From Verrucomicrobiota bacterium (GTDB lineage Bacteria > Verrucomicrobiota > Verrucomicrobiia > Chthoniobacterales > UBA10450): DNA of 64,000 nt. Location of the stretch: contig JAFASN010000030.1 in the NCBI GenBank assembly GCA_019244415.1, forward strand, positions 1 to 64,000, given 5' to 3'. The notes below the pieces were generated by a model that saw only the letters and a program-made list of their open reading frames with translations, made no database searches and was not told the origin of the DNA. The position numbers and the translations under genes were made by a program. This document shows positions 41,398 to 57,877 of the stretch, one piece after another (position 1 is the stretch's first letter; every line of letters starts with the position of its first letter).

Positions 41398-41492
41398 CGT
41401 CATCCCGAGCGAAGTCGAGGGATCCCGTGATGTCACGTTCAAGGTCGCTTCACGGGATTGTTCGACTCCGCTTCGCTCCGCTCACAATGACG
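41398..41492. repeat. Palindromic dispersed repeat, copy A
   Basis: A roughly 95-base element begins CGTCATCCCGAGCGAAGTCG and ends GCTCACAATGACG, with imperfect inverted arms of about 35 bases around a short non-conserved loop. It is intergenic between the RND adaptor and permease genes. Related copies lie at 55371-55464 and 56016-56111. Confidence 0.9.
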
Positions 41493-55370: not shown

Positions 55371-55464
55371 CGTCATCCCCTGTGAAGTCGAGGGATCCCG
55401 TTGCGAAGTGGAAAGGTAACTCGGCGGGATTGTTCGACTGGGCTTGGCTCCGCTCGGAATGACG
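55371..55464. repeat. Palindromic dispersed repeat, copy B, between pheS and pheT
   Basis: The 94-base element starts CGTCATCCCCTGTGAAGTCG and ends CTCCGCTCGGAATGACG. Its inverted arms are related to copies A and C. It starts 3 bases after the pheS stop codon and ends 10 bases before the pheT ATG, so it should form a hairpin in the pheST messenger next to the pheT ribosome-binding site. Confidence 0.9.
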
Positions 55465-55474
55465 AGGTGGTGAG

Positions 55475-57877
55475 ATGAAATTTTCCGTTAACTGGCTGCG
55501 CGAATTTGTCGATTTGCCCCTGAGTACGGAGGTACTCACGGATCTGCTCACGATGAGCGGCATCGAGATGGAGCAAATCGAGCAGCGCGGCGGGAATTTC
55601 GACAATGTGATCGTCGCGCAGATCACGGCGTCGAAGCAGCACCCGAATGCCGACCGGCTAAGCGTTTGCGAAGTGAACGACGGCAGCGGCAACGCGCGCC
55701 AGATCGTCTGCGGAGCGAAGAATTACAAAACGGGAGACAAGGTTCCGCTGGCGCTGCCTGGCGCGGAGTTGCCGAACGGATTGAAGATCCGCGCCAGCAA
55801 ACTGCGCGGCGTGGAGAGCAACGGCATGCTGTGCAGCGCCATCGAGCTTGGCCTCGGCGAAGAGGCGAGCGGCCTGCTCATTCTTTCACCGGAGACAAAG
55901 ATCGGTGCACCGCTGCGCGAAGTTTTTCCGCCAGACACAATCATCGACGTCGAGATCACGCCGAACCGCGGTGACTTGCTCAGTCATCTCGGACTGGCGC
56001 GCGAAATCGGCGCGCTGTCATCCCGAGCGAAGTCGAGGGATCCCGTGGAAGTCAGCTTAAAGGTAACGCTCCGGGGTTCCTCGACTCCGCTTGGCTCCGC
56101 TCAGGATGACATAACCATTTCCGCGTTGCGAGAATGTCCATTTTACTCCATTCAGCGCATCGAGAATGTGCGCGTCGGGAGAAGCCCTGATTGGCTGCGG
56201 GCGAAGATCGAGAGCGTTGGGATTCGTTCGATCAACAACGTCGTTGATGTGTCCAATTTCGTCATGCTTGAGCTGGGCCAGCCGACGCATGCGTTCGATG
56301 CGGCGAAGTTGCGCGGCACAATCAATGTGCGACTCGCACGCGAGGGGGAAACGCTTCTGGCGCTCGACGGGCGCACGTATTCGCTGCGACCGAATCAGGT
56401 CGTGATCGCGGATACTGAACGCGCCATCGGTCTGGGCGGAGTGATGGGCGGCGAAGAATCGGGCGTGAGTACAACGACCACGTCGGTGCTGCTGGAAAGC
56501 GCGTACTTTTCGCCCGGCAGCATCCGGCGCACAGCTCGCGAACTGAACCTGCCTAGCGATGCAAGTTACCGTTTTGAACGTGGCGTTGATCCGCAGATGA
56601 TTTTGCGGGCATCAAAACGCGCGACCGCAATCATCTGCGAAATCGCCGGTGGCACCGCCAAAGAGATGAGCATCGCCGGAGAACTGCCGGGTAATCCGGC
56701 GGACATATCGTTGCGTTACGAACGAGTGGACCGGGTGCTCGGAAGCCATATTGAGCCACAAGCAGCCGATGGAATTCTCACATGCTTCGGGCTGGAAAAA
56801 GCGAATGATTCGAGCACGAGCGTGAGTACGAGCACGTGGAAAATCCCGAGCTACCGGCGCGACTTGCAGCGCGAGATTGACCTGATCGAGGAGATTGCGC
56901 GAGCGCACGGTATTAACAAAATCCCGAGCGCGGATCGCAGTCGCTTTACCGCATCGAGCGAAGCGGACCGGCAATATGACTTCGAGTCGCAAATCCGGCG
57001 GGAGCTGGTTGCGCTTGGCTTCAATGAAGCGCGTACTTCGGCGCTGATCGCGCGCGGCGAGCTGGCACGCGCGAGTGGCGCGGTCGAGCTGCGCAATCCG
57101 CTCACAGAAGACCACGTTGCGCTCCGTACGAGCCTGGTGCCGGGCCTGCTCGCTGGCGTTGCCCGTAACGCACGCGCCGGAGCGGAACGAATCGCACTGT
57201 TTGAAATCGGGAACATTTTCGCCGCAATGACGGGCGAGCAGAAACGCTCGCTCGCGATCGTTCTGAGCGGGAACGTGCAATCGAAGAAGAGCTGGCGCGG
57301 CGCTGAGTACAGGCACTTTGATTTTTTTGACCTGAAAGGAGTGCTCGAATCGTTGTTTTCGGCGAGGGCGGACGAGCGTGAGTACAGGCGCACGGAACGC
57401 AGCGGGTTTGCGCTCGCAGCGGCGATTTCGTCTGGCGAAAAGACGATCGGCTTTGTCGGGCAACTTGCATCGGCGGAGGCGAACGCGCTCGATGCAAGCG
57501 CGCCGGTACTCGTGGCGGAAGTCGATCTCGCGGAACTCGCGCGAACACGAAAAACGGCTGCGGCATTCAGCGAAATGGAGCGTCACCCGTCGATCCGGCG
57601 AGATATCGCGATGTTTGTGCCGCGGCACGTAACGCACGCCGACATCTCGCGTGTGATCTCTTCGGGGGACGAGCCGCTGCTCGAGCGGGTGGAGTTATTC
57701 GATCTGTTCAGCGAAAAAGATGTGGCGGCAAACGAGAGGCAGGCACGAAAGTCGCTGGCGTATTCATTGACATATCGCGGCAAAAACCGCACACTCACAA
57801 ACGAGGAAGTGAGTGCGGCGCACGCGCGGATTCGCGAGCGGCTGCGAAGGGAAATTGGAGCGCAATTGCGCGAGTAG
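55475..57877 (+). CDS. pheT: Phenylalanyl-tRNA synthetase beta subunit with in-frame repeat insertion
   Basis: The 800-residue subunit has all the expected parts. An N-terminal start MKFSVNWLREFVDLPL leads to the EMAP-like tRNA-binding domain (CGAKNYKTGDKVPLALPGAE). The editing B3/B4 domain shows NNVVDVSNFVMLELGQPTHA, and the B5 domain is followed by a catalytic-like core (AFSEMERHPSIRRDIAMFVP). The C-terminal anticodon-binding domain shows VELFDLFSEKDVAANERQAR and SLAYSLTYRGKNRTLTNEEV. Residues about 181-213 (SSRAKSRDPVEVSLK onward) are encoded by a 96-base dispersed repeat and sit in the linker between the tRNA-binding and editing domains. The frame is intact around it. Confidence 0.96.
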   Translation: MKFSVNWLREFVDLPLSTEVLTDLLTMSGIEMEQIEQRGGNFDNVIVAQITASKQHPNADRLSVCEVNDGSGNARQIVCGAKNYKTGDKVPLALPGAELPNGLKIRASKLRGVESNGMLCSAIELGLGEEASGLLILSPETKIGAPLREVFPPDTIIDVEITPNRGDLLSHLGLAREIGALSSRAKSRDPVEVSLKVTLRGSSTPLGSAQDDITISALRECPFYSIQRIENVRVGRSPDWLRAKIESVGIRSINNVVDVSNFVMLELGQPTHAFDAAKLRGTINVRLAREGETLLALDGRTYSLRPNQVVIADTERAIGLGGVMGGEESGVSTTTTSVLLESAYFSPGSIRRTARELNLPSDASYRFERGVDPQMILRASKRATAIICEIAGGTAKEMSIAGELPGNPADISLRYERVDRVLGSHIEPQAADGILTCFGLEKANDSSTSVSTSTWKIPSYRRDLQREIDLIEEIARAHGINKIPSADRSRFTASSEADRQYDFESQIRRELVALGFNEARTSALIARGELARASGAVELRNPLTEDHVALRTSLVPGLLAGVARNARAGAERIALFEIGNIFAAMTGEQKRSLAIVLSGNVQSKKSWRGAEYRHFDFFDLKGVLESLFSARADEREYRRTERSGFALAAAISSGEKTIGFVGQLASAEANALDASAPVLVAEVDLAELARTRKTAAAFSEMERHPSIRRDIAMFVPRHVTHADISRVISSGDEPLLERVELFDLFSEKDVAANERQARKSLAYSLTYRGKNRTLTNEEVSAAHARIRERLRREIGAQLRE
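56016..56111. repeat. Palindromic dispersed repeat, copy C, in frame inside pheT
   Basis: The element is 96 bases, exactly 32 codons. It starts TGTCATCCCGAGCGAAGTCG and ends CCGCTCAGGATGACA. It shares its arms with copies A and B. It inserts 32 residues without a stop codon into the PheT linker. Confidence 0.92.

Follow-up and report, generated by a model that had tools for sequence, protein, structure and literature searches.

The stretch of DNA considered here (the window) comprises positions 1-64,000 of contig JAFASN010000030.1, from a Verrucomicrobiota bacterium (Chthoniobacterales; UBA10450; assembly GCA_019244415.1). It carries an intact gene for the beta subunit of phenylalanine--tRNA ligase, and within the gene lies a palindromic element that belongs to a dispersed repeat family, designated family A. 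The relevant features are as follows.

55475..57877, forward strand: pheT, phenylalanine--tRNA ligase beta subunit, 800 aa, intact (open reading frame, profile match)
56016..56111, forward strand: in-frame palindromic element of family A, with CGTC-type REP dimer architecture, coding for PheT residues 182-212 (BLAST, fold)
56017..56046, forward strand: left half of the element (GTCATCCCGAGCGAAGTCGAGGGATCCCGT), matching the intergenic copy at 55372 with 90% identity (alignment)
56059..56110, forward strand: right half of the element, matching the intergenic copy at 55412 with 81% identity (alignment)
55372..55463, forward strand: intergenic family-A copy between the upstream gene (pheS by sequence) and the adjoining pheT start codon, 77% identity (BLAST)
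41399..41491, forward strand: intergenic family-A copy between two open reading frames (ORFs), 83% identity (BLAST)

The pheT frame has no internal stops and matches the TIGR00472 pheT_bact profile at full length (residues 1-799); no second pheT was seen in the genome. The 96-bp element, TGTCATCCC...GGATGACA, codes for SSRAKSRDPVEVSLKVTLRGSSTPLGSAQDD, with its end bases falling into codons 181 (L) and 213 (I). The initial annotation, which had described 96 stop-free bases in frame at this position, homologous to intergenic copies at 41398 and 55371, is confirmed on these points. It had also spoken of residues of about 181-213 as added. The element does code for residues 182-212, but these make up nearly the entire variable linker and stand in place of some 20 older residues, for a net gain of 11 aa over the commonest linker of the family: the span from NRGD to CPF(F/Y) is 50 residues with that linker and 61 in the window genome (G000).

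Both intergenic copies in the window start with CGTCAT and end with ATGACG, placing the CGTC tag at the outer end, and the window copies are head-to-head inverted pairs in which the element pairs end to end. The pheT copy ends in TGTC, one base off the tag. As single-stranded DNA it folds with −24.2 kcal/mol (z −4.5; 0 of 200 shuffles were equally good), preferring a single long hairpin to two small ones of the kind that form a CGTC REP unit (8-9 bp stem, 4-5 nt loop); the intergenic copies fold more weakly (z −2.4 and −1.1). A BLAST search of the 3.15-Mb genome gave 53 matches at E<=1e-3, which reduce to 40 distinct places once overlaps are merged, the best of them 85% identical to the pheT copy over its full length. 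Chance similarity is ruled out by these 40 places and the extent of that identity. The pheT element has the architecture of a CGTC-type REP dimer and is a member of a dispersed family.

REPs tagged with CGTC or GTAG have been described as short palindromes that form head-to-head dimers and are mostly intergenic (Di Nocera et al. 2013, BMC Genomics 14:522, PMC3733652). According to the part of that report drawn on here, some lie in frame in genes, including uvrA, DNA repair genes and tRNA synthetases; the largest number of GTAG cases is that of Opitutus terrae, a member of the Verrucomicrobia; and recB of two Xanthomonas species carries different REPs at roughly the same site. The same part records CGTC REPs from five phyla, with Verrucomicrobia absent from the list, gives no dedicated transposase as known for them, and places the Rickettsia elements RPE-4 and RPE-6 in the CGTC superfamily (the Rickettsia elements are reviewed in PMC10969869). 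Family A resembles these dimers in its tag, its head-to-head arrangement and its 40 mostly intergenic places.

Seven of the 40 family-A copies lie in frame within genes, and in each case profiles of the host protein match on both sides of the element. The hosts are pheT, uvrA, miaA, egtB, the genes for a YdiJ-like dehydrogenase and a POT permease, and metH, whose copy separates the homocysteine domain from the pterin domain; the search for other in-frame copies proposed at the outset thus came out in favour of the initial view. Nine further ORFs that run over copies (L202, L206, L220, L190, L209, L210, L212, L214 and L215) were not counted: in these the element precedes the recognisable domain or touches its border, or the ORF lacked a profile check. 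The seven genic copies use two of the three forward frames, a number too small for a test of preference. About 15 of 39 copies would be expected to be stop-free in a given frame, and 8-20 are. The notion of an inherently stop-free family A is therefore unsupported, its copies being open in every frame about as often as chance predicts. Selection in the host, rather than a property of the element, would then account for the open frames, openness acting as a filter.

The nearest named relatives by PheT come from soil metagenomes and carry the labels Verrucomicrobia, Chthoniobacterales, Spartobacteria or Udaeobacter. Ten members of the genus have PheT sequences 66-72% identical to that of the window genome, with a wholly different linker. 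Sister genomes lack the residues in question, as the initial view of a mobile insertion implies, and a conserved protein insertion is ruled out by these relatives. Palindromic dimers are recognisable in 30 of the 68 readable PheT linkers of the family. They fall into seven sequence families. For 22 of the dimers, BLAST established a tie to dispersed copies in the genome that carries them; the other eight were assigned by eye (G004, G006, G014, G023, G044, G046, G075 and G080).

Family A: G000, G072, G073, G074 and G080
Family B (GTAGGGC..): 13 genomes
Family C (GTAGCTGCC..): G005, G008 and G025, with a variant in G006
Family D: G020, G021 and G026
Family E: G022 and G038
Family F: G019 and G024
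Family G: G030

The GTAG/CTAC ends are similar among families B, C, D, E and G, and the pheT copy together with five other linker palindromes gives DNA folds with z from −4.5 to −7.6. Two close relatives hold different families between the same flanks: in both G007 (family B) and G008 (family C) the palindrome follows CTGACGAACAAAAG and precedes AAGATCTCCGC. A PheT tree of 53 genomes, computed with the linker masked, requires at least 20 changes of element type and, counted separately, 11 of presence or absence; the tree was built by a quick method with some weak forks and six rows only about 21% filled, and its counts are blind to gain versus loss. Judged from these sequences, the same joint of PheT has been refilled many times by unrelated repeats across this bacterial family. 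The insertion first noted in pheT is present, but it is one of many independent events at the linker rather than a single one. REP-like sequences of differing families also occur in sister genomes in the linkers of MiaA (L334, L338-L343, L325) and of YdiJ-like proteins (L320, L322, L323, L327, L329-L331).

An AlphaFold model of PheT, computed from 43 sequences (mean pLDDT 83, pTM 0.57), gives residues 190-209 a pLDDT of about 35-38 and the flanking blocks about 90, agreeing with the early suggestion of a loop; solved PheRS beta chains align to PheT over the entire chain. Low pLDDT is support and not proof of disorder, because thinly covered stretches of an alignment also score low. The simplest reading is that the insert is a tolerated loop, predicted to be disordered.

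An extension of this pattern comes from MetH, where the linker that bears family A in the window genome holds a complete in-frame Y1 transposase in relatives. By following PF01797 matches in long ORFs, in-frame RAYT transposases were found in CarB, RecG, MetH (two linkers), AlaS, MqnA, ClpB, ValS, Sua5/TsaC and RarA. The HUH pattern recovered 41 embedded units (23 + 18, two free-standing genes being left out), all of them open and all with the Y[VI]xxNP tyrosine motif; units lacking HUH would escape this count because HUH served as the search handle, and L362, L455 and L458, which were not recovered, may have lost it. PF01797 scores above its cut-off in all nine fusions scanned, while NF047646 is listed in four and exceeds its own cut-off in one. 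Scans of the nine with Pfam and NCBIfam gave no match to an intein or splicing domain. REP-like inverted ends, checked in 20 units, were strong in 14 and weak in four, with none found in two; many carry GTAG or GGAG feet. Flank searches found no second close copy of CarB, RecG or AlaS in these incomplete genomes.

In vertically inherited pairs, with the exception of one nearly identical pair, dN/dS of the RAYT is 0.05-0.18. The values for host and RAYT are 0.087 and 0.077 in RecG (G005/G007), 0.156 and 0.070 in MqnA (G007/G008), and 0.113 and 0.167 in CarB (G004/G006). Embedded RAYTs that descend vertically thus appear to be constrained like their hosts. In other pairs, such as CarB of G009 and G003, the host sequences are close and the RAYTs saturated, which points to exchange. 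Within RecG the RAYT tree shows two lineages, and at both the CarB and the RecG site different RAYT lineages occupy one position in sister species.

The distribution of the embedded units may be recorded briefly. In many relatives RAYT units occupy a CarB linker (L345-L351, L442, L447, L449, L456, L457) that elsewhere is empty or has short inserts; varied REP-like dimers are present as well in a second linker of CarB. RAYTs of at least two lineages lie in frame in RecG (L352-L358, L416, L446, L448, L451, L452, L454), and the 686-aa RecG frame of the window genome is without one. The second MetH linker, ahead of the activation domain, holds a RAYT in L444 (G065) and L453 (G042). AlaS of the window genome has an in-frame RAYT domain (contig C96, L228:1-2007, minus strand); the contig ends inside the gene, so that the AlaS N-terminus lies outside it. 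None of the four Y1 genes of G000 has a family-A copy nearby; where a copy shares a contig with such a gene, the shortest distance is about 9 kb. Outside the family, in 41 genomes of the class, two of the matches listed (E to about 2e-7) fall in ORFs of more than 500 aa. Two genomes of another family in the class, G095 and G112, have many free-standing Y1 genes, with 48 and 15 among the matches listed.

These observations suggest a common process, which we regard as probable: mobile palindromes, and in several proteins complete RAYT units, are gained, swapped and eroded in tolerant linkers while the host proteins stay intact. At pheT, a head-to-head dimer of the CGTC type would have inserted into a tolerant linker that joins the tRNA-binding N-terminal part of the protein to its editing part, presumably entering by single-strand (HUH/Y1) transposition. 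Its survival would rest on a length and frame that leave the gene open, and it would be translated as a disordered loop replacing the older linker, the peptide most likely having no function of its own beyond spacing. Mobilization of the element is something we infer. Simple transposition predicts a clean addition and a replacement is seen, so deletions or recombination must be added to the scheme; the old linker may have been lost later. A few linkers, among them those of PheT, MetH, CarB, RecG, YdiJ and MiaA, would be reused in this way by unrelated families of REP dimers, and several would also receive complete RAYT units. A bolder form of the proposal, for which we put the chances at about even, is that essential enzymes carry RAYT-REP units as passengers translated in frame. 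The transposase would be made within CarB, RecG, MetH, AlaS and other proteins, would be catalytically intact under purifying selection, and would spread REP dimers to linkers such as that of PheT.

Replacement of the linker with retention of its flanks could instead reflect recombination or gene conversion between repeat copies, a cassette exchange through shared ends rather than repeated transposition. The GTAG/CTAC ends common to families B, C, D, E and G are consistent with such an exchange, but the families share only a few end bases, the CGTC family fewer, and the first entry still requires transposition; we hold this explanation to be possible, if doubtful. Active targeting, in which the mobilizing enzyme reads a DNA feature at these sites irrespective of what the protein tolerates, would fit the identical PheT flanks of G007 and G008 and the different RAYT lineages at the CarB and RecG sites. 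It seems unlikely, as the hosts are unrelated proteins with no common target motif identified, linkers tolerate inserts anyway, and most intragenic REPs lie at differing sites in the part of the survey of Di Nocera et al. (PMC3733652) used here.

A function for the host, with the peptide or an RNA hairpin kept by selection for PheRS tuning, translation or mRNA stability, is suggested by the strong hairpin and the related copy directly upstream of pheT. That the same place is filled by seven unrelated sequences and by plain linkers, and that the insert is unconserved and predicted to be disordered, makes such a role improbable. In a metagenome-assembled genome of 134 contigs, repeats may cause misjoins, and an assembly chimera might be suspected. 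The PheT frame, however, is unbroken across both joins, and dozens of other assemblies, some of them in 10-30 contigs (G020, G021, G026, G037, G038), have differing elements at these codons; the chance of an artefact is very small indeed.

In-frame REPs, including cases in tRNA synthetases and in a verrucomicrobium, were already published, and the pheT element alone adds one more. The succession of many unrelated families at a single linker across a bacterial family, and complete RAYT units read in frame, both seen here, are not described in the part of PMC3733652 consulted. In the open-access literature searched, no case came up of one linker exchanging unrelated families again and again, nor of RAYT fusions or in-frame transposase domains in essential enzymes. 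The parallel drawn at the outset with Rickettsia palindromic elements is apt, given the CGTC tags of the intergenic copies and the superfamily placement of RPE-4 and RPE-6 in the portion of PMC3733652 cited above: the Rickettsia elements, like that of pheT, are palindromes in frame in proteins and apparently tolerated. They belong to another phylum, and the likeness considered here is one of architecture and tag; at the PheT linker, moreover, the element largely replaces the linker and is swapped among families. REPINs and their RAYT (TnpA-REP) enzymes (PMC3116915, PMC2817692, PMC6006769) offer a second comparison, in that inverted REP pairs form the dispersed unit and the HUH/Y1 enzymes are flanked by REPs. 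Family A adjoins no RAYT in G000. Quentin et al. (2018) set unexpectedly long Y1 proteins aside, treating them as fused genes or faulty annotation; here RAYT units lie in frame in host enzymes of many genomes. Inteins are likewise mobile in-frame passengers of essential proteins, but the embedded RAYTs are intein-like in lifestyle only, the nine fusions scanned having no match to a splicing domain.

Dispersed palindromes thus appear as a recurrent source of linkers in essential genes outside Rickettsia. The seven families at one site are natural replicates that may help to distinguish function from tolerance. Should the embedded RAYTs be active, they would be expressed by way of essential host genes, and the question of why RAYTs are retained would then have a direct and testable answer. 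If the passenger reading is true, these bacteria would harbour a mobile-element lifestyle that resembles that of inteins but dispenses with splicing.
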